64,000 bases of DNA. Origin: Myxococcota bacterium (GTDB lineage: Bacteria > Myxococcota_C > UBA6777). This document shows, in pieces, positions 6,676-64,000 of this stretch. The notes under the pieces are model-generated. The model made no database searches and was not told the DNA's origin. It saw nothing but the letters and a program-made list of their open reading frames with translations. The position numbers and the translations under genes were made by a program. The DNA lies in assembly GCA_023150835.1 (NCBI GenBank), contig JAKLKB010000007.1, forward strand, positions 23,115-87,114. Direction: 5' to 3'. The stretch's first letter is position 1. The number at the start of each line of letters is the position of its first letter.

Positions 6676-8868
6676 ATGAAGATCGTATTCGCGACTAGCT
6701 TGGTCGGAAATGACCGTTTGATGCGCGCTGAAGCGCTACTCCGCTTTTGCAAAGAACAAGGACACGAAGTCTTTCTCGTCACGCGCAATCGTTTCGCCGA
6801 CGCATGGACACCCTCTATCCTTGAAACCTTTCAGATCGCCATCCCTCGACACTGCCCCCCCGAAGAGATGGCCGCAATGACCCTTGAAAAAAACCGCGCA
6901 CTGCTCGGAAGAATGGACTATTTTCGCCCGCTGTGCGCGATCATCGACGGCGAAGACTTTGTAGGAAAAGTCGCACAACGACTGAACATCCCGACTGTCT
7001 GCATCGATCCCAAACACGCTTTTGAAACCACCCGCCTCAGCATCACACTCCCTCCCTTTGCCCTCGAACAACTCCGCTCCTTGCGCGAAGAACTCCGTCA
7101 ACGCAGCTTTGAACCCCGCTGGTTTCTCTTGCCTGTCTTTTTCGATGCCCTACCGATCCGCCCCGAAGTGTTGCTTTGTCAGCCGATATCCACCTTCACC
7201 GATACCCCAAACACCGACACTTCTGACGAGGGGTGGCTGCTTTTGGTCGGATGGCAAGGCGTTGAAGAAGATGTCCGCCCTTTCCTTGAGCAGCAGATCC
7301 GCGTCCGTGTCCACTACCCTGTCCGCCTCGAAAGACCTCGCGAGATCAAACAAGAAGAATCCCTTGATGGCGAAGGAGCCGCTATGCGCAGACGGCGCTC
7401 AGCCCCCCTCTCCCGCTCTCCCGAAGAAGAAGCCGCTGCCGCACGCGCCATGCTCCCCAACTCCGATGCCTATGTTTCTTATTCCGTCGCCAACGCCGAA
7501 GCTTGGCAACAAGATCTCCCCCGCGCCAAAGCCGTGATCCTGCAAGGCGATGCTTCTCAACTTGCCGATGCCATCGCTCTACAAAAACCCACCCTCGTCA
7601 TCCCACAAAAAGATCACTTCGAACAATGGGTTTGCGGCCAATACATCGAAAAAATGGGCGTCGGTGAAACACACACCAAACTCAATCGCACCGCCCTCGA
7701 CGGCTTCCTCGAACGGCTCGACCGCTACAAAGACAAATTACATCAACTCCCCCCAAGCAAATCTCCCAAGATCACCCACGCCCTCCAAGAGATCTTGACC
7801 ACCCTCCAATCCGAAGCCACCGCACAACCCCGCCAATCCGAACGCTTCCCCTCTTCGCAACGAAACCGACCCACAACCCGAACCAACACATCCCCCACCA
7901 CACACACAGACGGCTCCCCACCAGAACGCCGCACACCTCGACAAGACGGCGATTCACCGAAACCTCGGACCTTCCGCCAAGATGGCGATGCCCCGAGACC
8001 TCGGACCTTCCGCCAAGATGGTGATGCTCCAAGACCTCGGACCTTCCGCCAAGATGGTGATGCTCCAAGACCTCGTTCTCCCCGCCCTGATGGTGATGCT
8101 CCGAGACCTCGGACCTTCCGCCAAGATGGTGATGCTCCAAGACCTCGGACCTTCCGCCAAGATGGTGATGCTCCGAGACCTCGGACCTTCCGCCAAGATG
8201 GTGATGCTCCGAGACCTCGGACCTTCCGACAAGATGGTGATGCTCCGAGACCTCGGACCTTCCGACAAGATGGTGATGCTCCAAGACCTCGTTTCTCCAA
8301 TAGAGAGAACGCCCCACGCCCACGGGCTGAGGAAGGGCGGCGCCCCGCATCTTCGGAACGCGGAGAACGCGCAGGCTCCATCGAGGTGTGGCGTCCTCCC
8401 TCGAAACAAGCCGACGAAACGCATTCCACAAACCAACCCCAGACAGCAGGTGGCGAACGGCTGCCACGCCGCAAAAACACCGAAGGTTCGGGCGAACAAA
8501 AGCCTTGGCGCAAAAACACCGAAGGTTCGAGCGAACAAAAGCCTTGGCGCAAAAACACCGAAGGTTCGAGCGAACAAAAGCCTTGGCGCAAAAACACCGA
8601 AGGTTCGGGCGAACAAAAGCCTTGGCGCAAAAACACCGAAGGTTCGGGCGAACAAAAGCCTTGGCGTAAAAACACCGAAGGTTCGGGCGAACAAAAGCCT
8701 TGGCGTAAAAACATCGAAGGTTCGGGTGAACGAAAGCCTTGGCGTAAAAACACCGAAGGTTCGGGTGAACGAAAGCCTTGGCGTAAAAACACCGAACCAA
8801 AAGAAACAAGCGAACGAGGAGCACCCAAACCCAAACCTCCGAAACGTACCCTCCCGCGAGACGAATAG
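6676..8868 (+). CDS. GT-B-type glycosyltransferase (MurG/UGT-like) with two repeat blocks at the C-terminus
   Basis: Protein of 730 residues. The first 400 residues resemble GT-B glycosyltransferases: MKIVFATSLVGNDRLMRAE at the N-terminus corresponds to the acceptor-side Rossmann start, and GDASQLADAIALQKPTLVIP followed by DHFEQWVCGQYIEKMGVG is the typical nucleotide-sugar donor-side motif. The sugar and acceptor cannot be told. From about residue 421 the chain is low-complexity: ten 12-residue units (FRQDGDAPRPRT type), a short linker, then eight full 13-residue units (WRKNTEGSGEQKP type). The tail is strongly basic and probably disordered. The ATG at 6676 has GAGG 6 bases upstream; a TTG at 6664 is less likely. 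Long antisense and shifted ORFs over the tail are by-products of the repeats. Confidence 0.75.
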   Translation: MKIVFATSLVGNDRLMRAEALLRFCKEQGHEVFLVTRNRFADAWTPSILETFQIAIPRHCPPEEMAAMTLEKNRALLGRMDYFRPLCAIIDGEDFVGKVAQRLNIPTVCIDPKHAFETTRLSITLPPFALEQLRSLREELRQRSFEPRWFLLPVFFDALPIRPEVLLCQPISTFTDTPNTDTSDEGWLLLVGWQGVEEDVRPFLEQQIRVRVHYPVRLERPREIKQEESLDGEGAAMRRRRSAPLSRSPEEEAAAARAMLPNSDAYVSYSVANAEAWQQDLPRAKAVILQGDASQLADAIALQKPTLVIPQKDHFEQWVCGQYIEKMGVGETHTKLNRTALDGFLERLDRYKDKLHQLPPSKSPKITHALQEILTTLQSEATAQPRQSERFPSSQRNRPTTRTNTSPTTHTDGSPPERRTPRQDGDSPKPRTFRQDGDAPRPRTFRQDGDAPRPRTFRQDGDAPRPRSPRPDGDAPRPRTFRQDGDAPRPRTFRQDGDAPRPRTFRQDGDAPRPRTFRQDGDAPRPRTFRQDGDAPRPRFSNRENAPRPRAEEGRRPASSERGERAGSIEVWRPPSKQADETHSTNQPQTAGGERLPRRKNTEGSGEQKPWRKNTEGSSEQKPWRKNTEGSSEQKPWRKNTEGSGEQKPWRKNTEGSGEQKPWRKNTEGSGEQKPWRKNIEGSGERKPWRKNTEGSGERKPWRKNTEPKETSERGAPKPKPPKRTLPRDE
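7936..8295 (+). repeat. 36-bp coding minisatellite, 10 units
   Basis: Ten contiguous 36-bp units encode (F/P)R(Q/P)DGD(A/S)P(R/K)PR(T/S/F). Units differ mostly at synonymous positions such as ggc/ggt and aga/cga; units 1 and 5 are the most divergent. The block is in frame with the glycosyltransferase gene. Confidence 0.95.
8464..8796 (+). repeat. 39-bp coding minisatellite, 8 units plus a partial one
   Basis: Eight contiguous 39-bp units and a truncated ninth encode PWRKNTEGS(G/S)E(Q/R)K. This is a second, unrelated minisatellite in the same gene, 168 bases after the 36-bp block. Confidence 0.95.
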
Positions 8869-11351: not shown

Positions 11352-11465
11352 ATACAAAATCCGCTCATCGTGTGATCGCAACACGTAGGGGCAGACAGGT
11401 GTGGCTGCCCAAGAACAGGGCGTCTACGCACGACCCTTCAACCACACATCTTGCGGATATCGTAT
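11352..11465 (+). repeat. R1 repeat, copy A (114 bp, ERIC-like palindrome)
   Basis: Intergenic palindromic element. Its ends are atacaaaatccgc and gcggatatcgtat, nearly perfect inverted repeats. A central hairpin has GGGGCAG on one side and CTGCCC on the other. Same length and order as copies at 27335, 46365 and 54179. It occupies part of the 348-base gap between the Eis-like gene and the next lipoprotein gene; I see nothing recognisable in the remainder. Confidence 0.9.
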
Positions 11466-14677: not shown

Positions 14678-17600
14678 CTTGCTTCGTCCTCCAAAAACCA
14701 CTGTAATCCTGAAAAACGCAAAGCAGGCCACAAGATCGGTAGCGCTTCAGCCGCTTGTTGCCAGCTTTCTCGCGAACGGATCTCACAAGCCCGCAGCGCG
14801 TTGTGCAAACCTTTTTGCAAGCCTTTCCATTGATCTTCGAGACGTAAAGCGTACAGGCAGCCCATCCACAGTAGGTAATACACAAGGCTCGTCCATTCGG
14901 CTTCAAGCTGCGGATTGTGTTCTTGCATCAACGAAGGGATCATGTTGATCAAAAGCTCTTGTTCCCCAAGGGCCGACCAATGCGTCAGCATCTCACGAAG
15001 CACGCGCAGACTTTGCTCTAGCGCATCGGGCAACCGAAGTTGGATCGCGTATTCGACAGCCTTGAATTGCCAATAAAAGGCTTCTTTGGGGGCCGCTCCC
15101 TGTGAACAAAGCATCGCCACCACAGGAGCGATCGCGACAAGCTCCCGATATCCGCGAGATTGCAACATGGCTTGCGCAGCACGAAGCGCAAAAGGCGATT
15201 GTTCCTGCACAGACAAGGCTGATCGTGCGATATCCCGCAGTATCGGGAAAGAAAAAGCATAGCGTTCATCGTCTCCCCACGAACGCAACTGGAAAAAACG
15301 CAAGCGCAACAACTGATTGATCAGATCCAAGGTTTCAGTACGTTCCGATGCACACACCGCTTGGATCTCTTCGACAGAGAAAGGCTCGACCAAAAAGGCA
15401 CAGCCACGCACAGGAACGATCAATTGCGGTGGCAACATCGCCATCCGACTCTCAAGCAACGGACGAATCGCAAGATCCGACGAAGAAAGTGTGTCCACCC
15501 CGTTGGCATCGGCAACCCGCATGAGTGGCTTCGCAGGGCTGTTTCTCCCCAGAGGATGGGGTTTTGCGTAATGGGAGAGGTCGGATGAAGTTTGTTGCGT
15601 GTGCGTGTAAGTGTTCGTCGGAGACAGCACAGGAGCGTCGACTTCGGTGGTGGCGGGGTATCGGCGAAGATGGGGCGGTGGAGAAGAAAGCTTGTGTTGG
15701 GCCGAGAACGGGGCGGGGCTTTCTTGCAAGAAAGGTTGTTCGCTGGTATCCGCAAATCCCTCCGCACGAGAGGACTCTGCGTGCGATGACGAAGCAAATA
15801 CCGCACGTTGTGAAAGGTTCGATGAAGCCGATGTTTGCGATGACGAAGCAAATACCGCACGTTGCGAAAGGTTCGATGAAGCCGATGTTTGCGATGACGA
15901 AGCAAATACCGCACGTTGTGGTGGTGGCGATGGGATCGACGTTTGTGATGGCGCAACAAACACCGAATGTTGTGGAGCGGGTGATGCGGTAGAGGGCGCA
16001 ACCAAGGGGTTCTCCGAAGGATAGGGAGAAAGGGCATTCACGCCTGTTTGATCGCCTTCTTCATCCTCTTCCAAGGCGAGTTCCTGCCCGATGCCTTGTT
16101 CTGGCTTGTGTTGAGTGGCTTCCCGCCAAGCGATCTCTGCTCGCAGAGCTTCCAACATCGGCATCTTGGACATCACCATCGTCTGCTCAGAAGACGCCGC
16201 ATCGACGGCATGTTGTTGTGTACGCGCCAACAAAGCCTGCCCGACGGGGCTTGCGGGATGGATGCCTCCTCCAGAAACGAGATCCTGCGACCACACACCG
16301 AGTCCACCCGAAGGGACATCACGCTGTGATGTACCCAGTCCACCCGAAGGGACATCACGCTGTGATGTACCCAGTCCACCCGAAGGGACATCGCGCTGTG
16401 ATGTACCCAGTCCACCCGAAGGGACATCGCGCTGTGATGTACCCAGTCCACCCGAAGGGAGATCACGACGCTGCGCTGAAAGTCCTTTTGAAGCGGCATC
16501 TTTCGGATCTTCGATCTCCAGATCCAGTTCCAATTCCTCGATCTCTCCGGGCTGAAAGAACAAGGGCGGCAAGCTCATCGAAGGTTTTTGCTGCACAACC
16601 ACAGCAGGCGAAGAGGACGGTTCACCCGAAACATCCGAAGACTCAGCCCGAACAGAAAACGAAGAGGACGGTTCACCCGAAACATCCGAAGACTCGGCCC
16701 GCGCAGGAGAAGGGAGCCGATCAGTGCTGTCTGGATCGCGATCGTGGCGGTTTGCCTTCCCGTACAGCCCACGCGAAGAAGACGCACTATCGACATCCCC
16801 TTCGGAGGACAAGACCTTCGCCCTTTTTGTGGGTGGGGACTCGAAAGTTCGCTCTGTCACACGAGGGAGATTGTGTGGTGTCGAATCGCTGTTGAGTTCA
16901 GAAAGAAGCTCTGCGTCTTCGGCTTGGGAGATCGCAAACAAACCATCTTGCGTGTGGCTTGCTTGTTCTGTAGCCCACGGATTCGGCTCCATCGTATGAC
17001 GAGGCTTTTCGCGACGAGCAGACGCCTGCTTCTCGGATCTCGATGACGGCAGAGCCGCAGGATCGGGTGTATGCGACACCGCAGGCTCCGATCGCATCCC
17101 AGCCATCGGCGACGTATCGGCAGCGAATGGCGATTGAAGATCCAAAAGCGTGGCTTTTTCGGCCAACTTTCGGGCAGAAGAGGTCGCTACGGCAGAAGAG
17201 GTCGCTACGGCAGAAGAGGCCGCTGCGGCAGAAGAGGCCGCTGCGGATGCTTTGGTAAAGAGGGGCGGAGCGTTTTGCGAGAAAGAATCGACATGAATGG
17301 TGGTGAGTTGTGGCCCTGTGACATCCGACTCAAGGGGGGGCAAGCTGGCGACAAGAGAAGAGGATTCGTCGTCTGTGAGCGTGCGCACCAAAAGCTTACG
17401 GCGGGCATCGGCATCGGAAGTGGAAGTACGGTTGGAAGAGGGCAAGGAAGAGGGGGCGCGCTCAGAAACAGGAGAGAGTGAACGCTCAGAAACAGGAGAG
17501 GGTGAGACCATCTCTTCTTCAAAGAACAGATCAGACAATTGAAGAACTTGTGTTCCTTCGGAGAGAGGAGGTTGTGTGGTGGGCGCGGTTTCTTGTTGGG

Positions 17601-19778: not shown

Positions 19779-22700
19779 ATGGCCCAAGACCGCATTGTGA
19801 TACGCGGCGCACGCGAACACAACCTCAAAAACATTGACGTGGATATCCCACGCGATCAACTGGTCGTGATCACGGGGCTGAGTGGTAGCGGCAAAAGCTC
19901 ACTCGCCTTTGACACGATCTACGCGGAAGGACAACGGCGCTACGTCGAGTCGTTGTCTGCTTACGCACGCCAATTCCTTCCGCAGATGAACAAGCCCGAT
20001 GTCGATCTGATCGAAGGGCTGAGTCCAGCGATCTCGATCGAACAAAAGACGACGCACCGAAACCCCCGTTCTACGGTCGGAACCGTCACGGAGATCTACG
20101 ATTATCTGCGCCTATTGTACGCACGCATCGGCGTTCCGCATTGCTTTCGGACAGGACTCCCGATCCAAGGCCAAACCACCGAGCAGATGGTGGATCGGCT
20201 GATCGCGCTCGAAGAAGGTACGCGGATCGTGGTGCTTGCACCTGTTGTGCGCGGTCGCAAGGGCGAATACCGCAAAGAACTCGATCAATTTCGCCGAGAT
20301 GGTTTTGTGCGCGTGCGGATCGATGGCAAAACATTCGAGCTATCGGACGAGATCGAGATCGACAAAAACAAAAAGCACGATATCGATATCTACATCGACC
20401 GCCTCTCGATCCGCGAAGGTGTGCGCAGCCGCCTCGCAGACTCGATCGAAACAGCCCTAAAACTCGGCGAAGGCGTCCTCAAGATCCTATTTCAAGATGA
20501 AAGCGAGTGGCTGTTGAGCCAACACCACGCTTGCATGATGTGCGGGATGTCGTTTCCCGAGATCACCCCACAGATGTTTTCGTTCAATTCTCCACAAGGA
20601 GCCTGCCCAACCTGCGATGGCATCGGCTTTGAGTCCTACATCGATCCCGACCTTGTGATCCCGAACCCCCGCCTTTCGATCGCCCAAGGAGCGATCGCGA
20701 TCTATGGACGCAGCAAAGACTCTCGCATGGGCCAAGTGATCGAAGATATCTGCAAAGCCTACGGCGGCGATATCGAACTTCCCTTCGAGGAACTTGACGA
20801 AGATATCCGCAATCTTTTGCTGCACGGAAGCGGAAACAACAAGCCCAAACGCGGGCGAGGCCGAAGCGCCCCAAGCACCCGATGGTTCGAGGGGATCATC
20901 CCGATGCTTGAGCGTACCCTCCGAGAATCGGACTCCGAAGAGCGCAAAGAAGGCATCGAACCTTATACCCGACAACGGCCCTGTGAGACCTGCAAAGGAA
21001 ACCGACTGCGCAAAGAAAGCATGCACATCCTTGTCGGCAAAAAAGATATCGCCGCGATCACCCAACTCGCGATCCGCGAAGCACTCGACTTTTTCGACCA
21101 CCTCCAACTCTCCACCCGCGACGAAGAGATCGCCCGCCGCATCCTCAAAGAGATCCGCGAACGCTTGCGTTTTCTCGTCGATGTCGGCCTTGACTACCTT
21201 TCCCTCGCACGCACCGCAGGCACACTCTCGGGCGGCGAAGCCCAGCGCATCCGCCTCGCAACGCAGATCGGTTCTTCTCTGACAGGCGTGTTGTACGTCC
21301 TCGACGAGCCTTCGATCGGCCTCCATCCACGCGACAACAACCGCCTGATCCGCACGCTGACCCATCTACGCGATCTCGGAAATACGGTGCTGGTCGTCGA
21401 ACACGACGAAGAGACCATGCGTTACGCCGATCACTTGATCGATATGGGTCCGGGCGCAGGAGTTCATGGTGGTGCGATCATCGCCCAAGGCCCCGTTGCA
21501 TCCGTGATCAACGACCCCAACAGCCTTACAGGGCAATACCTTTCGGGAGCCCGCAGTATCGAGATCCCAACCAAACGAAGGAATGGCTCAGGTCGGATGC
21601 TCTCGATACGCGGCGCTTTTCATAACAACCTCAAGCAACTCAACGTCGATCTCCCCCTTGGGATGCTGATCTGCGTCACAGGCGTATCGGGATCTGGAAA
21701 GTCCAGCCTAATCATCGACACCCTTTATCGCTACACCGCGCTCCATCTTCACGGCTCACGTGGCCGCCTCGGTGAAGTCGAGTCCATCGAAGGACTCGAA
21801 CACATCGACAAAGTCATCAACATCGATCAATCCCCCATCGGTCGTACTCCGCGCTCCAACCCCGCCACCTACGTCGATCTCTTTGGGCCGATCCGCCAGC
21901 TCTTTACGCAGCTTCCCGAGTCCAAGGTGCGCGGCTACGCCGCAGGTCGTTTCTCCTTTAACGTCCCGGGTGGGCGATGCGAATCCTGCGAAGGGGCGGG
22001 CGTGATCCGTATCGAGATGCACTTTCTCCCCGATGTCTTCGTCACTTGCGAAGCCTGCCGAGGACAACGCTTCAACCGCGAAACACTCGATGTCAAATAC
22101 AAAGGCAAGCATATCTCCGAAGTCCTCGACATGAGCGTCGAAGAGGCCCTCGAATTTTTCAACGCACAACCCCCGATACGCCGCCGCCTTGAAACACTCC
22201 ATGACGTCGGGCTCGACTACATCAAACTCGGTCAAGCCGCCACCACGCTTTCCGGCGGCGAAGCCCAACGCATCAAACTCTCCAAAGAACTTTCCCGCCG
22301 CTCCACAGGCAATACCCTTTACATCCTCGACGAACCCACTACGGGACTCCACTTTGAGGATATCAAGCGCCTGCTCACCGTCCTCCATCGCCTCGTAGAC
22401 AACGGCAATACCGTGATCGTCATTGAGCATCAACTTGATGTGATCAAGACAGCTGACTGGATCATCGATATCGGACCCGAAGGCGGCGCACGCGGCGGTG
22501 AACTCGTCGCTGCCGGAACCCCCGACACGATCGCACAACACCCCTCCAGTCACACAGGCCGCTTTCTCAAAGACCTTCTCCGTCCCTCTACCACCACCAC
22601 CAACGGCACGCACAAACCACCTGACCATGCCTCCTCCACCCCAACAAACATCACCTTGATAAACAACAACGCGGCATCCACCGACAAGCTCAACGCTCTT

Positions 22701-22952
22701 TCCGACAAGATCGCCACATCCACCGACAAGATCGCCACGTCCACCGACAAGATCGCCACGTCCACCGACAAGATCACCACGTCCACCGACAAGATCGCCA
22801 CGTCCACCGACAAGATCACCACGTCCACCGACAAGATCGCCACTTCCACCGAAAAGATCACCGCATCCACCGAGGAAGCCCCCACCGTTGCAACCCTCCC
22901 GACAGAAGCGATGGCTCCAAAACGCGCACCACGAAAAAGAAAGGCGATCTGA
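19779..22952 (+). CDS. uvrA: UvrABC system protein A, with repetitive C-terminal tail
   Basis: DNA damage sensor of nucleotide excision repair, acting as a dimer with UvrB. It has 1057 residues, about 100 more than usual. First Walker [10 protein letters not shown] near the N-terminus ([18 protein letters not shown] before it), first zinc finger CMMC with a later CPTC, ABC signature [12 protein letters not shown], second Walker [10 protein letters not shown], second zinc finger CESC with CEAC, and second signature [12 protein letters not shown] are all visible. The extra residues are a C-terminal tail of (S)TDKIAT-type heptads ending in [10 protein letters not shown]. The ATG at 19779 follows AAAAGG; the frame upstream to 19347 is open but not UvrA-like. 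Its stop overlaps the next start (TGATG). A candidate LexA box lies upstream. Confidence 0.97.
22676..22885 (+). repeat. 21-bp tandem repeat in the uvrA tail
   Basis: About nine units of 21 bp encode DKIATST and close variants ([14 protein letters not shown]). In frame, low-complexity, and outside the conserved UvrA domains. The same region is open on the opposite strand because of its periodicity. Confidence 0.85.
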
Positions 22953-27334: not shown

Positions 27335-27448
27335 ATACGAAATCCGCCCATTGTGTGATCGTAAAACGTAGGGGCAGACAGGTGTGGCTGCCCAACCGTA
27401 GGGCATCTATGCACGATCCTTCGATCACACATCTTGCGGATATCGTAT
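27335..27448 (+). repeat. R1 repeat, copy B (114 bp)
   Basis: Ends atacgaaatccgc and gcggatatcgtat; inner inverted pair GTGTGATCG and CGATCACAC; central GGGGCAG/CTGCCC hairpin. It lies in the 314-base gap between the YhbY gene and the cysteine-rich lipoprotein gene. It has the same orientation as copies A and E. Confidence 0.92.
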
Positions 27449-29963: not shown

Positions 29964-30009
29964 CTTATCAGAATCCTTCACCAAGAAAGCAAGAAAACTA
30001 TGCTCACAA

Positions 30010-30177
30010 CGTCCGCTCTCATCGCACCCACAACATCCGCTCTCATCGCCGCCACAATGTCCGCTCTCATCGCACCCACAACATCCGCTCTCATCGCACC
30101 CACAACATCCGCTCTCATCGCACCCACAACATCCGCTCTCATCGCACCCACAACATCCGCTCTCATCGCACCTGCAC
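30010..30177 (+). repeat. 24-bp intergenic minisatellite, 7 units
   Basis: Seven contiguous 24-bp units (catccgctctcatcgcaccc plus acaa) fill most of the 228-base gap between two propeller lipoprotein genes. On the minus strand they read as (MRADVVGA)7 and on the plus strand as SALIAPTT repeats. Neither frame has a convincing start, so I treat it as non-coding. Confidence 0.9.
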
Positions 30178-30191
30178 CAGCAGGGTCTTTG

Positions 30192-32237
30192 CTATGGGGT
30201 GACCTTGAGCGTGGTGTCAATCCCCCGCAGCGCTCCGATCACTTGGTGGCTATTGAGATCGATGATCGAGATCAGCGTGTTGAGAAAGTTCGCAACATAG
30301 GCACGCGGCTTAGGATTGGGCGTCCCTGCGGGCGGATCGTAGATCACCATAAAGTAAGGCCGCTCTCCCACAGGGATCTGATAGATCGTCTGCATCGCTT
30401 CGACATCGATCACATCGACACGACCGCGCCGCGAAGACACCACATACAACAGATCTGGATAGGGAGCGGGACGATGGCGATACAACAGTTGCGCAGGCTC
30501 CGTTCCGACGGGCAACGTCGCAACAAGACGCATCGTCAACGGGCTGTCGGGACGTTCACGCAACAGATCGTACACCAACACCACCGAAGGCAGGCGGCTT
30601 GCAACATACAGTCGCGCCCATCCATGCTTGCGATTGATCGCAGCCGTAATCCCCCGCATATCCGCCTGAATCGTCGTCGAAGGTGGAGCCGTCATATCGA
30701 CGTTGGTAAACACGACTTGCCCGATATCACGCGGCAACAAGGGGGTGTCTTTGAGCGGTAAGGCGTACACGCGGTTGCTTTGGCGCGATACCAAGAACAA
30801 TTCACCCTTCCCACCGAGATCTGTGTGATTGGGCAATAACGCGATCCCTGTCATCCCCAACGGCAAGCCCAACGATTCTTTGTTCGCGACGATCCCCATC
30901 TCTCGGCGATCTTGGGAAGTTGCAGGCAACGACAGCTTGCTCAGATCCAGATCCGCATAACCGCCTTGTTCCAACAACGAAGCAAACAACCGCGTATCTT
31001 TGCAGCTTTCGTAAGACGCGCAATCGCCGTCCCCTTCGCAATAACGCGGCACTTCCGCCATCGCTGTCCGACAATGCCCGCTTTCGCAGATCTCGCCTTC
31101 CGCGCAGCTTGTGCTGTCGGTGCAACCTTCGATACAACGGCCTTCATCACAACGTGTCCCTTGCGGACAATCGAGATCGACGGCGCACAGCTTTCGCGCA
31201 CAACGCCCCGCAAAACAAGCCAGTCCAATCGGACAATCTGTCGGGGCAACACAAGTCCGCGTCACACAACGTCCCCCCTCGCAGCGTTCTTCGGCAAGAC
31301 ACGCGCTGTCTTGTTGGCAAGGCTTGCCCGTAGGCCGTTTGGTTCGACAACGCCCGAAAGAACAGCTTTGTCCTTCGGGGCATTGTGTATCGCCGACGCA
31401 TCCCGCGACACATCGGCTCACATCGCAACGCTCTCCCGCTTTACAAGCGCCTTTTTGCTGATCGTCTGCGCTACAAACACAGTCGTTGTCGACTTTGCAC
31501 GCCCGACGGGCCGTACACACCGCGCCGATCACCAAGCCATACGGATAAAAGTTGGTGGTGCAGTACCCGACGCCTGCGCCCAAACCCGTTGCAGAGTCTC
31601 GCAAACAGCGTTCTTGTCGCGCAAAGACACAATCCGCATCCGTCTCACAGCGCTTGCCAAGCAAAAAGATCTTGTTTTCATCGCCACAACGCGGCGCGGG
31701 ATCCACCTCAAACTTGCCTTCGGCTCCCACGCCACCTGATTTTTCTTTTGGGATGGCCTTTTGCGAGCAAGACAGATGCTCCGCCCCCCTCTTGTCTGGA
31801 TCGATACCAAAATGCAAGATCTCCGAAAAGCCGATCGCTCCGCCTTCTCGGCTGTCGTTTCGGATCGAAACAAACCCGCGCCGCCCGTCCCGAGAAAGCA
31901 ACACCTCACCCGCAAACGAACCGATCTCGACCGTCGTTCCGGCAACTTGTTTGAGTGTCTTGTACGTCGTCTTCACCCCCAGCAGATCCCCCGTGACCTC
32001 TTCGTCCTCTGCGGTGTCAAAGACCATCAACGTCCCGCCCGTATAAGCGAGGTCAAAGTTGGAGTTGGCGATGTACAAAAAGCGACCGCTCGGATGCACC
32101 GCAAGGCCGATCGGATAATGGATCTTGGTGGGATCAGGCGAGATGCCGTTGTATTCGGAGACACAACTGAAGGAGAACAACGTCCCCATCCATGCAAGCA
32201 ACAAGATCATCATCAAAGGAATGCGTCTGTTTCTCAT
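30192..32237 (-). CDS. beta-propeller lipoprotein with a cysteine-rich insert
   Basis: Protein of 681 residues. The N-terminal signal ends in LFSFSC, a probable lipobox. Propeller blades frame the protein: YPIGLAVHPSGRFLYIANSN after the signal, and VGTEPAQLLYRHRPAPYPD plus VGERPYFMVIYDPP near the C-terminus. Between them, residues about 200-400 are a cysteine-rich array of 35-45-residue modules (CETDADCVFARQERC, CVGDTQCPEGQSC, CAVDLDCPQGTRC) of the same type as in the two Cys-rich proteins of this cluster. So the gene links both architectures. The ATG at 32237 is my choice; TTG at 32246 and ATG at 32213 are possible, and ribosome-binding signals are weak. The function is unknown; surface display is inference. 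Confidence 0.75.
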   Translation of the reverse strand: MRNRRIPLMMILLLAWMGTLFSFSCVSEYNGISPDPTKIHYPIGLAVHPSGRFLYIANSNFDLAYTGGTLMVFDTAEDEEVTGDLLGVKTTYKTLKQVAGTTVEIGSFAGEVLLSRDGRRGFVSIRNDSREGGAIGFSEILHFGIDPDKRGAEHLSCSQKAIPKEKSGGVGAEGKFEVDPAPRCGDENKIFLLGKRCETDADCVFARQERCLRDSATGLGAGVGYCTTNFYPYGLVIGAVCTARRACKVDNDCVCSADDQQKGACKAGERCDVSRCVAGCVGDTQCPEGQSCSFGRCRTKRPTGKPCQQDSACLAEERCEGGRCVTRTCVAPTDCPIGLACFAGRCARKLCAVDLDCPQGTRCDEGRCIEGCTDSTSCAEGEICESGHCRTAMAEVPRYCEGDGDCASYESCKDTRLFASLLEQGGYADLDLSKLSLPATSQDRREMGIVANKESLGLPLGMTGIALLPNHTDLGGKGELFLVSRQSNRVYALPLKDTPLLPRDIGQVVFTNVDMTAPPSTTIQADMRGITAAINRKHGWARLYVASRLPSVVLVYDLLRERPDSPLTMRLVATLPVGTEPAQLLYRHRPAPYPDLLYVVSSRRGRVDVIDVEAMQTIYQIPVGERPYFMVIYDPPAGTPNPKPRAYVANFLNTLISIIDLNSHQVIGALRGIDTTLKVTP

Positions 32238-38180: not shown

Positions 38181-38642
38181 CGCTTCTTCTCTGCTCCTCT
38201 TGATCTTGCGCGCCTTTACCCTTTGATCTCATCCAAGTTTCTCTTGGACTGAATCGCGATTCATTTTTGTACACGAAAAATGGCGCGCTGCCAACTAGAA
38301 AATCATCGCCCTACCTATCGCTTAGAGCGCGTAGGGATATCTGCCATCGGAATCGTTTGGGGATAGAAGGGAAACAGACCCTATCCGCGCTTCTCTGCCC
38401 TTGTCAAGGGGCGAAACGTACCATGCCGAGATCATGCGCAAAAGCCTACACAAAAAGCAGTCACGCCGTTGGCCAAAAAACTCCCGTGTTCACAGTCGTC
38501 CAAGCGAGAACGTCGTTGGTTTGGAAAGCAGCGATCTTTCCGCCGATAGGGGGTCAAGGGACGCGAGTCTATGGCGAGGTATGGGGTGGCACCCCACAAA
38601 AACCATCGAACCGCACAAGTTCCGCAGAAAAAAACGAAGCGA
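38181..38642. other. intergenic region before glyQ
   Basis: A stretch of 462 bases without a gene. Near glyQ, on the leader side, lie two small inverted repeats: TCCAAG/CTTGGA and the palindrome GAATCGCGATTC (about 38233-38262). They may be leader structures or a weak bidirectional terminator. R2 fills 38461-38600. Confidence 0.5.
38461..38600 (-). repeat. R2 repeat (GC-rich, hairpin-forming), copy 1
   Basis: Shares with the other R2 copies the blocks ccaaaaaactcccgtgttc, a gggtcaaggg core and a terminal ATGGGGTGGCACCCCAC hairpin. More diverged than the copies at 54041 and 60602. Confidence 0.75.
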
Positions 38643-39650: not shown

Positions 39651-39690
39651 CTTCTTTCAAACCTTTTTCTTTCAGAAGCGACGCCGTCGG

Positions 39691-39829
39691 TGGGGTGGGG
39701 TTGAAACCCCACGCCCCGCCATAGAGCCTTGCCCCCTTGACCCCGTGTTGGCGGGGCGATCGAGGGTGTTTCAAACAAACGGCACAGCCGCTTGAAGCTC
39801 TGCGAACACGGCTTTTTTTGTCAACTGCG
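39691..39829 (+). repeat. R2 repeat, copy 2
   Basis: Begins with the hairpin TGGGGTTGAAACCCCA, contains CCTTGACCCCGTGTTGGCGG, and ends with GCGAACACGGCTTTTTTTG. It fills the gap between the VWA gene, whose stop codon touches it, and the HEAT-repeat gene. Confidence 0.88.
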
Positions 39830-42800
39830 TCACTTCTCTTCTTTTCTGCGTTTCTGTTTTGCTTTTTTTCCTCGCTTGGTCTGTGTGCTTTTGGCTTGTT
39901 TGGTCTTGGGTGGATCTTCGGCCTTGGGTTCGGCCACAAAGGTCAACTGGGCTTGGACTTTGCGCTTGTCTTGCGGGGGGAAAAACTTGCGCCCACGCAG
40001 CTTCCATAAGAAACAGTCACCGAATCCTTCGGGAAGCGTCGAAGCATCGAGATGGGTGGTTAGTGCGCGCCCATAGCCGCTGATCTGCAAAGATACGGTG
40101 GCTTGGCCTTCTTCGAGGGAGGTTGTTTTTGAGGGCGATGCTGCGGGCTTTTTCTCCGCAGCGTAGCGCTTGCGCATCTGGCGATAACACACCGAAAGCG
40201 ACAAGAGGCGGGCTTCGACGGACTGTTTGAATTTCTCACGGTCGATCACGCCCTTCACACGCACAGAAATCAAACGCACCCGCCCCTCGGGCAAGACCAG
40301 CGGCTTGGTGCGGTATCTTTGATAACGACGACGGATGGAATAGCCACGATAAGGCATCGAACAGGGGGCTGCTTGCGCTAAAAATTCCGCCGAAGAACGG
40401 GCCGATTGAGCAGACCAAGCGGCTGCATCGGTTTGCGCAAAAGCCTTCGCCCCACCGAGATCACCGCCCCACACCCACAACAAAGCGATCCCTGTGAGAC
40501 TTGCCGCACGACCAAAGATCCGCACCCGCCGCAAAAAGATATCCAGCAAAAACAAGCAAAGCGCCAAAAACACCAGATACGGCCACAAGGGTTTGTGCGC
40601 AAGCAAGCGCTCATCAGACTTCCGCGCCCAGATATCGGACTCTTTGGGTTCAAAGAACCCACCGCCCACTTGGGCCGCCGCACGAAGGCGCGGGATATCG
40701 GGACTCGCGCTCAGCCACTCCGCAGGATACGAAAAAGAAGCTGAAGCCTGCGAACGACCGACCGTTTGGCCGTTGCGCTTAAAGGTGGCTTTGATCACAT
40801 AAGCTCCGTGGCTCGTCGCGGGGAAGGTTCCTTCGTAAAACCCGGGTCCTGTTTGACGCATCGTCGCTTTGACAGATCGCAGTTTGGGATCAAGGATCGT
40901 CGCGAGACCATCGAGCTTATCGATAAAAACGCCGTTGTTGTCGATCGCATCGACCGTCAAATAACCGATCCCATCGCGGATCGTCGCTTTCATCCGAAGC
41001 TCACGACTTGGCCCTTGGCGCATATACTCACGGATCGTCTGCGCCCAAAACTGCCCATACCCCCGCCAAGGCAACCACTGCACCGACCATCGGTTTTTAA
41101 CATCCGAAGTAAAGGCCGCCACGTTGCCCAAACCCACGCGCCAATGCGCCAACAACGGCTCTCCAAGATCCGTACTCAAGATCACTTGCGCTCCGCGCTT
41201 CGGCTTTGTGGAGACATAACCAAGCAGATACGGCGCAGAAGAAAAATCCAAGCCTCGGATCGCCTGTGCGCGGGCATTCAAAACACGCGGTCGGAAGGGT
41301 TCTTCCACAAACGATGATCGGCTCACCTTGCTCGTCTCCTTCGTAAAGATCTTGGGGATGCTGTAGACATCGTTGGTCGCATAAAAACGCCCGCTTCCTT
41401 GTTGCGCCATCTGCTGCAAGATATCGACGCGACTCCCTGCGCCTACAGCCACCGTCGAGATCGTCATGCTTTCGGCGGTCATCATCTGCACCACTTCCAA
41501 GATGCTCGACGGCGATTCCGAAGGCGCACCATCCGTCAACAAGATCACATGCTTGACCCGCGCATTGACTCCCGACAGCATCGTATGCGCCATCCGTAGG
41601 GCCGGAATGAAGTTCGTCCCACCGTCCGAACGCAAACGGCCAATGTCGTAAAGGATCCGAGACTTGTTGCTTGCAGACTGCATCGCAACCAACTCTTCGG
41701 ACTGGTGATTAAACGCCACCACTCCGACATAATCGTTGTCCCCCAGTAGCCGCACCGTCGCTTTCGCAGCATCCCGCGCCAACGCGATCCGATCGCTTCC
41801 CATCGAACACGACTTGTCGATCACCATCACCAACGCCAACGACGGCGACTCTTTCTTCTTTTCGATATCCAAACGCACCGGCAAGATCTTTTCCATCTGT
41901 GTCTGAAAATATCCCCCCGGGCCAAAGCTATTTTCCCCGCCCACCATGATCAAACCACCCCCCAGATCGCGAACATACGCCTGCATCAAGCTCATCTGAC
42001 CCGTAGAAAGCTGATAGGCCGGTATATCGGACAACAGCACCAGATCATAACGCTCCAGATCCGCCAGACGCGAAGGGACACCGTACCCACTTCTCACTTC
42101 CACAGAAAACTTCTCTTTTTGCAGCGCTTGCGTCAGATAATGCGCTCGTTCGGGCGTCCCCTCCAAGTACAACACACGTGGTTCGCCCAAGATCGAAGCC
42201 GCTCGCACAAAAAAGTTGTTTCCTCGAAAACGATCACGACGTGGGCGGATAATCGCCTGAAACGACGTAGCCCCCGCTTCATCGACTTGGGCCTTAAAAC
42301 GCACTTGATTGATGCCTTTGACCAGATCCACACGGCGCGCTGCAAACACAAACCCGTCCTTGTAAATCACCAAAGGCACCGCCTTGTCCGCGTAGGTTGA
42401 AAAGATCTGCACGTCCATGTGAAAAGGCGCACGAAGGCGGATATTCTCGGGGATACGCACATCTTGGATCAAGACTTCATCGGGATAAGGGCCTCGGATC
42501 GCCACCGTCGACAGTTTGATACCGAGCCGTTTGGCCCGCGCTGCTTCTTGCAGCAAACTCCCCTGTGTCTCCCGACCATCCGAGATCAACACCATCCGAC
42601 GGATCGTATCCGCCGGAAAGATCCCGTATGCGTGGCGGATCGCCGCTTGGAGATTCGAGGCATTCTCGTTTTTGTGCCGCTTGATCTGCGGGGCTTTTTT
42701 CTGCTCTCCCTTTAACAGGCGTGTGCTCGAAGAAAAAGTCAAAACACGGATATCATCTTTTCCTTTTCGACTTTTCCACAATGTATCGATGTACTCTTGC

Positions 42801-46364: not shown

Positions 46365-46478
46365 ATACGATATTCGAGTGATCCATGATCGAAGGATAGC
46401 GCGTAGACGCCCGACTGTTGGGCAGCCACACTTGTCTGCCCCTACGTTTTGCGATCACACGATGGGCGGATTTCGTAT
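46365..46478 (-). repeat. R1 repeat, copy C (114 bp)
   Basis: Reverse orientation relative to copy B: begins atacgatattcg and ends gcggatttcgtat. Contains GGGCAGCC and TGTCTGCCCC as the central pair and GCGATCACAC near the end. It directly abuts R2. Confidence 0.92.
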
Positions 46479-47690: not shown

Positions 47691-47920
47691 TCCCTAACTC
47701 CCGTCTCGTTTGCGACCTTGCTTTCGTGCGCAAAGGCCCCAAAGCCTCGCACGTCTGACAACCGCGCCAAGTTAGCACTCGCGATCCCACCGGTCAAGCC
47801 AACCACTTTTCACCCGAAGACCGCTCCACCACAAGGTCATCCCCACTCCCAAACGCCCTTCCATCGCTCACGATCTAATCTCCCCACCTCTCCACATTGG
47901 GCTTCCTTAGATTCGGCTTG

Positions 47921-48288
47921 ATACGATATCCGAGCGATGTGTGATCGTAAGATATTGCGTAGACGCCCGATTCTTGGGCAGCCACAGGGGGCTGCCCCCA
48001 TACGCGCCTTGTTAAGGTGCAAACACCGGATAGTCTAGCCTGATCGCCGTTTCTTTTTCTCCCCCCCTCAATCCCCCCGTGAACGGGGGGAAGTTGGAAC
48101 GGGCAGCGTCTGCGTCTCGTGCAAACAGCGTGCGTCATGAAAAAACAAAATCCCCGATGCTTCCGACTTTCGCTCCCTCCCCTGTTCACGGGGGAGGGCT
48201 GGGGTGGGGGGGCCAACAAGCGCTTCACCTAACGCCTATGGGGGCTGCCCCTACACCGTTACGGTTGCACGCCCTGCGGATTTCGTAT
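47921..48288 (-). repeat. R1 repeat, copy D, interrupted by R3
   Basis: The left part (47921-47998) begins atacgatatccgagcg and reaches the central GGGGGCTGCCCC. The right part (48240-48288) resumes with GGGGGCTGCCCC and ends gcggatttcgtat. The 241 bases between are R3. Removing R3 and one 12-base copy restores an R1 of about the standard length. Confidence 0.88.
47999..48239 (+). mobile_element. R3 element (about 240 bp, MITE-like) inside R1 copy D
   Basis: Flanked by identical 12-base direct repeats GGGGGCTGCCCC (47987-47998 and 48240-48251). The ends are imperfect inverted repeats: CATACGCGCCTTGTTAAGG on the left; the right end, reverse-complemented, reads ATAGGCGTTAGGTGAAGCGC. Inside are two strong hairpins, CCCCCCGTGAACGGGGGG and CCCTCCCCTGTTCACGGGGG. 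No ORF. About 136 bases are almost identical to the right end of the window. Confidence 0.85.
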
Positions 48289-48300
48289 GACGCCATCCGA

Positions 48301-48440
48301 TGGTGTTGTGGGGTTGGAACCGCACACCCCGCAAGGGAACTCCGTCCCCTTGACCCCGTATAAATGGGGCGATCAGCGTTTTTCAAACCCACAACACCGC
48401 CGCTTGAACGTCCGCGAACACAGGGGTATTTTGCCCACAA
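48301..48440 (+). repeat. R2 repeat, copy 4
   Basis: Contains ggggttggaaccgcacaccc, ccttgaccccgtataaatgg and cgcttgaacgtccgcgaaca. It lies 12 bases after R1 copy D, in the opposite orientation to the copy next to R1 copy C. Confidence 0.85.
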
Positions 48441-54012: not shown

Positions 54013-54040
54013 CAACGCGTGGTGCAGTGGGATGGTCTTT

Positions 54041-54178
54041 GGTGGGGTTGGAACTCCACGCCCCGCAAGGGACCACAGGCCCCTTGACCCCGTTTTGGCG
54101 GGGTGATCGACGGTGTTTCTCACCAACAGCGCAGCCGCTTGAGCGTTCGCGAACACAGCTTTTTTTGGCAACTGCGTC
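54041..54178 (+). repeat. R2 repeat, copy 5
   Basis: Well preserved: ggtggggttggaactccacg, a CAAGGG/CCCTTG pair, the hairpin ACCCCGTTTTGGCGGGGT, and an end with GTTCGCGAACACAGC followed by seven T. The last element resembles a rho-independent terminator for plus-strand transcription from the MATE gene. Confidence 0.9.
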
Positions 54179-54293
54179 ATACGAAATCCGCCCGTTGCGT
54201 GATCATAAAAATGTAGGGGCAGCCCCCTGTGGCTGCCCAAGCACAGGGCGTCTTCGCGCTCTCCTTCGATCACAGATCACTCAAATATCGTAT
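54179..54293 (+). repeat. R1 repeat, copy E (115 bp)
   Basis: Ends atacgaaatccgc and caaatatcgtat; central GGGGCAGCCCCCTGTGGCTGCC. Directly continuous with the preceding R2. One base longer than the other intact copies. Confidence 0.9.
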
Positions 54294-60601: not shown

Positions 60602-60734
60602 GGTTGAAAAACGCCGTGTTCACGGCCTTTGGAGATAGCGGCGTGGTTGGTTTGAAAAACGCCCGTTCACCCCAACAATATGGGGTCAAGGGAGCCGCGC
60701 TTCCTTGCGGGGCGTGGGGCAGCGCCCCACAAAA
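60602..60734 (-). repeat. R2 repeat, copy 6
   Basis: Begins ggttgaaaaacgccgtgttc, contains AACAATATGGGGTCAAGGG and ends with the hairpin GTGGGGCAGCGCCCCAC. It ends 27 bases before the acyl-CoA dehydrogenase start and so covers its upstream region. Confidence 0.88.
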
Positions 60735-60761
60735 GTAAAGTAAAGAAGAAAGGATTGATCG

Positions 60762-63740: not shown

Positions 63741-63864
63741 CAATTTTCCCCCCGTGTTTGTGCAAGTTCAAGCGGTGCGGAGGTTTGTTTGAAAAGCAAT
63801 GATCACCCCGCCGATACGGGGTCAAGGGGGCCGCGACCCCTTGCGGGGTGTGGGGCGTTGCCCC
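63741..63864 (-). repeat. R2 repeat, copy 7, followed by R3
   Basis: Contains gccgatacggggtcaagggg and the end hairpin GGGGCGTTGCCCC. At exactly this hairpin the sequence changes to R3. Confidence 0.85.
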
Positions 63865-64000
63865 ATACGCGCTAGGTTAAGCGCTTGTTGGCCCCCCCAC
63901 CCCAGCCCTCCCCCGTGAACAGGGGAGGGAGCGAAAGTCGGAAGCAGCGGGGATTTTGTTTTTTCATGACGCACGCTGTTTGCACGAGACGCAGACGCTG
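63865..64000 (-). mobile_element. R3 element, cut by the right window edge
   Basis: Begins atacgcgctaggttaagcgc and continues for at least 136 bases almost identical to the reverse complement of 48104-48239, including cttgttggccccccc and the hairpin CCCTCCCCCGTGAACAGGGG. About 105 more bases would be expected beyond the edge. No ORF. Confidence 0.85.

Follow-up and report, generated by a model that had tools for sequence, protein, structure and literature searches.

Correia, ERIC, RUP and Nezha elements are short and non-coding, have inverted ends and occur in many intergenic copies, and to our knowledge MITEs of this type duplicate TA or other short targets. MIC231 elements carry passenger genes, and the target consensus of IS231A, from the work of Hallet et al. 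in 1994, is reportedly GGG-N5-CCC. The IS231 subgroup has ends of the form CAT-------AA--TAA---, duplications of 10-12 bp and target-specific insertion, and is confined almost only to the Bacillus cereus group; the ISH8 subgroup of IS4 makes a 10-bp duplication without target specificity (PMC2266710). IS231L has been found inserted into the ends of other transposons, and according to the same source MIC231 elements are transposase-less and are moved in trans by the IS231 transposase (PMC1196294).

The element described here, R3, lies inside a copy of another repeat, R1, in a stretch of 64,000 nucleotides from an uncultured Myxococcota bacterium. The whole of this stretch, referred to as the window, is C104:23115-87114 and its right edge coincides with the contig end. 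The genome to which it belongs (G000) comprises 7.56 Mb in 239 contigs, and comparison was made with a same-genus MAG, KLAP109, 'Myxococcota bacterium' (G001). Both are draft assemblies that are repeatedly broken inside R3-family elements, which are thus recurrent break points of the two MAG assemblies.

R3 resembles the IS231 subgroup in its duplication of 11 bp, which is inside the range of 10-12 bp, in its left end, with CAT at positions 1-3 and TAA at positions 15-17, and in its GGG-N5-CCC target; like IS231L it lands in other transposable elements. It differs in being without a transposase, in positions 11-12, which are TT at the left end and AG at the right end versus the AA of the IS231 consensus, in its host, an unrelated uncultured lineage, and in its targets, which are palindromes inside dispersed repeats. 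With MIC231 it shares the lack of its own transposase and, probably, IS231-type ends and movement in trans, but R3 is non-coding, is ~240 bp long and numbers well over 100 copies, whereas MIC231 has passenger genes. It is also as short, non-coding, inverted-ended and abundant in intergenic copies as the Correia, ERIC, RUP and Nezha elements, but the duplication that it makes is of 11 bp and falls in a GC-rich palindrome. The ISH8 subgroup was considered as well, and was ruled out by the 11-bp duplication and the strict target motif.

The reading preferred here, with a probability of about 0.72, is that R3 is a MITE that depends for its movement on an IS4-family DDE transposase of the IS231 type, supplied in trans and missing from the assembly as it stands. 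If this is true, the target behaviour of IS231 (11 bp, GGG-N5-CCC) would be extended to a very different uncultured lineage. The original prediction, made from the window alone, had been unable to assign the duplication to a common MITE family, a view that must now be revised, as the 11 bp, the GGG-N5-CCC and the ends together match the IS231 subgroup. By analogy R3 would work like an IS231-driven MITE and may belong to IS231 itself; it is not filed as a member because a transposase was not found and the AA at positions 11-12 is lacking. There is good support for R3 as a MITE family that is new but of a known kind, and whose nested ecology is unusual.

Structure of the interrupted repeat

The two copies of GGGGGCTGCCCC, at 47987-47998 and 48240-48251, are spaced by exactly 241 bases, so that R1 is interrupted at this sequence and resumes with it just as the original prediction had described. 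The repeat is real, but the 12-bp duplication deduced from it is not, as only 11 bp (GGGGCTGCCCC) are truly duplicated, the element is 242 bp and not 241, and the 12th base of the apparent repeat is R3's own terminal C/G. The features of the locus, and the related copies in the window, are as follows.

47919-47921, TGA flanking R1 on the left, a 3-bp duplication
47922-47998, plus strand, left part of R1, with the end TACGATATCCG... and including the left target copy
47988-47998, left copy of the target, GGGGCTGCCCC, GGG-N5-CCC, 11 bp
47999-48240, plus strand, inserted element R3, CATACGCG...CGCCTATG, 242 bp, non-coding
47999-48016, plus strand, left end of R3, CATACGCGCCTTGTTAAG (used in the exact-end search, with a reversed control)
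48223-48240, minus strand, right end of R3, CATAGGCGTTAGGTGAAG when read inwards, which matches the left end as an imperfect inverted repeat
48241-48251, right copy of the target, GGGGCTGCCCC, 11 bp
48252-48287, plus strand, right part of R1, ...CGGATTTCGTA; R1 minus the insert and the second target is 113 bp
48288-48290, TGA flanking R1 on the right, a 3-bp duplication
48299-48438, plus strand, R2 copy beside R1; an R2 copy is also found here in G001
54180-54292, minus strand, R1 copy without R3 (paralogous empty site), with GGGGCAGCCCC present once, at 54216-54226, and TCA as the flanking duplication
63864-64000, minus strand, another R3 copy, truncated at the contig end, in the R2 palindrome GGGCGTTGCCC (63853-63863)

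Three further claims about the insert stood up. The ends of R3 are imperfect inverted repeats of ~18 bp (CATACGCGCCTTGTTAAG / CATAGGCGTTAGGTGAAG); there is no transposase ORF in its 242 bp, the longest open stretch being of 76 codons and without supporting evidence; and the near-identical sequence at the right window edge is an inverted copy with 97% identity to R3 over 136 bp, which was truncated by the assembly because the window edge is the contig end. An Rfam search of R3 gave nothing credible (best E 0.48). Single-strand folding was only moderately better than that of shuffles, with z of -1.7 as DNA and -2.6 as RNA, and therefore no RNA function is claimed for R3.

R1 is itself a MITE of ~113 bp. 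Its ends read TACGAWATCCG and 3-bp TNA duplications flank 5/5 window copies (11353-11464, TTA; 27336-27447, TTA; 46366-46477, TGA; 47922-48287, TGA; 54180-54292, TCA), a combination that recalls IS5-type elements. R2 is a dispersed intergenic repeat with a palindrome of the GGGG-N5-CCCC type at one end, and its window copies are at 38459-38607, 39686-39835, 48299-48438, 54031-54180, 60607-60735 and 63746-63870. Among R1 copies at another locus is a segment (L053 1463-1875) with the ends TTAGAGGGTGTTTGCGAAAAAGTG / CACTTTTTCGCAAACACCCTCTTA and a degenerate PF01609 remnant inside, looking like another decayed insertion sequence; it was rejected as a source of the R3 transposase, since this remnant is all that its PF01609 match amounts to.

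Search for a transposase

A transposase gene with the terminal repeats of R3, for which the original prediction had suggested looking, was not found among the PF01609 matches of five genomes, its own and those of the family included, two close drafts among which break in elements. There were no PF01609 matches at all in G001, and no IS4-family DDE transposase with the YREK motif was found at R3 ends in the assemblies searched. As both close assemblies break inside elements, a multicopy autonomous copy of 1-2 kb could easily be missing from them.

R3 ends around a different interior that carries open reading frames were found at L202 1371-1637 (267 bp, in R3's own genome), at L198 1-137 and at the contig ends L203 and L204. 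Three contig ends of G001 (C178:1, C481:11775 and C39:3641) run into an element that shares the R3 end but has other, possibly coding, content. The elements at L202, L198, L203 and L204 are a possible trace of the autonomous element. The L202 element and the three G001 contig ends could also be called upon for the alternative that the transposase behind this MITE is another or an undescribed one, which likewise gives duplications of 11 bp at GGG-N5-CCC. They share the R3 ends, their frames have no Pfam or NCBIfam match in either reading direction, and the search for an IS4-type transposase with such ends was negative. This alternative is nevertheless considered unlikely: the L202-type frames are only ~70 codons long and ambiguous as to strand, and the duplication length, the target motif and the positions of CAT and TAA together match IS231.

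With an IS231-type transposase the insertion might have proceeded as follows. The enzyme would bind the ~18-bp ends (CAT...TTAAG) and excise the element, R3 would be joined to the strands of a GGG-N5-CCC target cut with an 11-bp stagger, and repair of the gaps would leave the 11-bp duplication. The target in this case was the palindromic centre of R1, a MITE that would itself have entered this intergenic DNA once the lineages of the two same-genus genomes had parted.

Copies, duplications and target choice

Exact matches to the R3 ends numbered 258 (128 + 130) in the element's own genome, and the end pattern with <=1 mismatch gave 144 + 150 matches, the reversed controls giving 0 in both searches. 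The number of elements with R3 ends in this genome is roughly 130-150, many of them cut by contig ends. There were 47 exact ends in G001 and 0 in three other genomes of the phylum, and the end sequence had no exact match in viral contigs. The copies that were read were mostly 161-277 bp in size, with one of 343 bp, and the median pairwise identity of 31 R3 copies of standard length was 90%. R3 thus has features that characterise a MITE, being short and transposase-less, with inverted ends and many dispersed copies that have target duplications. A 567-bp form in G001 keeps the R3 ends but has a different interior. At the loci where this form was found (L064 1218-1784 and L162) an R1-like module, TACGACCTCCG...CGGATGTGGTA, lies inside it, e.g. 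at L064 1428-1539. The R1 and R3 families appear to be nested in both directions.

Both flanks were read for 46 elements, 44 from G000 and two from G001. A perfect 11-bp duplication surrounds 34/46 of them; when the right flanks were shuffled among the 46 copies in 20,000 trials the mean was 3.4 and the maximum 14. If the element is taken as CATA...TATG, an 11-bp duplication accounts for 34/46 copies. Exact 12- and 13-bp duplications were rejected as they fit only 26-31 copies, failing where a base other than G stands outside or a base other than C comes next. The 11-bp reading is the best because the bases outside the duplication vary, the preceding base being A in 5/34 and the following base T or A in 3/34. 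The motif GGG-N5-CCC is present at 33/34 of the sites with a perfect duplication, the exception (L035) having GTG-N5-CCC with GTG on both sides. The N5 centre takes 14 different forms among the 34 sites and within each site is identical on both sides. The copies of R3 form a large natural collection of insertions that shows the choice of target at single-base resolution.

The palindromes of R2 are the commonest target of R3 elsewhere: 32 of the 46 insertion sites are in R2, 12 are in R1 and two are in neither, so that ~95% lie in R1/R2 palindromes and one mobile repeat supplies the target of another. One of the sites outside both repeats (L181) has a perfect duplication, and it is therefore the motif, rather than the repeat around it, that R3 targets. 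R1 and R2 contain 11/21 occurrences of GGG-N5-CCC and 5/5 of GGGG-N5-CCCC in the window, and it is largely this location of the extended palindrome that explains the preference of R3 for the two repeats, to which an avoidance of genes may add.

In 12/46 copies the duplication is absent or imperfect. Several of these have unlike targets on the left and right (L087, L179, L202, L026), the pattern that recombination between copies would leave, and in others the mismatch between the flanks is of one or two bases. As an explanation of the whole family, exchange among scattered palindromic repeats by recombination or gene conversion also has to be weighed, with R3 a spacer and not mobile, the more so as three orthologous sites have different interiors in the two species (see below). 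As such it is highly improbable given the constant ends, the constant 11-bp duplication with a locus-specific N5, the insertion outside R1 and R2 and the empty sites. That R3 is an ancestral part of R1, the plain R1 copies being deletion forms, can be practically discounted even though a second locus (C201) has R3 at the same place in R1, since most copies are elsewhere (32/46 in R2, 2/46 in neither), R1 copies that lack R3 retain a single clean target and the 11-bp repeat characterises all host sites.

Empty and shared insertion sites

R1 copies in G001 (for example C232:10441-10560 and C162:35-152), which match the left half of the interrupted copy at 95-100%, run through the insertion site without R3 and have one target only, with an overlap the size of GGGGGCTGCCCC. 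The original prediction had staked itself on two points, that R3 copies elsewhere would be flanked by duplications and that R1 would not always contain R3 in relatives, and it came through on both, most copies having the duplication (34/46 perfect) and the G001 copies of R1 being empty. Its view of R3 as a small non-autonomous mobile element that duplicates its target is likewise upheld by the 34/46 duplications with locus-specific N5 and by the empty R1 and orthologous sites.

The orthologous intergenic region of G001, with flanks that are 95% and 91% identical, contains neither R1 nor R3, and both insertions therefore appear to be recent. The R2 copy at this locus is common to the two genomes, and the neighbouring genes, as read from their ORFs, we take to encode a MoxR-type ATPase and a MurJ-type flippase. 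The most likely order would be that R1 entered after the split from the same-genus relative and that R3 then entered R1, but the composite of R1 and R3 could, less probably, have been lost in G001 instead of gained here. An orthologue test of L037 found no orthologous flank.

A comparison of 39 flanks from G001 with 114 from G000 revealed three orthologous sites (L072/L064, L171/L122, and L070 with L124 and L198) at which both species have elements whose interiors differ, and at the L070 site the arrangement of the element ends differs between the genomes. Among the GGGG-N5-CCCC sites of the window three are empty and two filled, from which it may be guessed, as a rough estimate, that at least a quarter of these sites are occupied; about three coincidences could therefore arise by independent insertion. 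The shared sites may reflect independent re-insertion or an exchange of interiors between fixed ends. It is suggested, as a less likely reading and with considerable doubt, that R1 and R2 spread GGGG-N5-CCCC landing pads and that the R3 family fills them until orthologous sites are refilled independently or interiors are exchanged, in which case the ecology of R3 is possibly target-saturated.

The window also contains tandem arrays, at 52-267, 7867-8841, 15782-16503, 22629-22873 and 29981-30203, with units of 12 to 54 nt that are mostly multiples of three.
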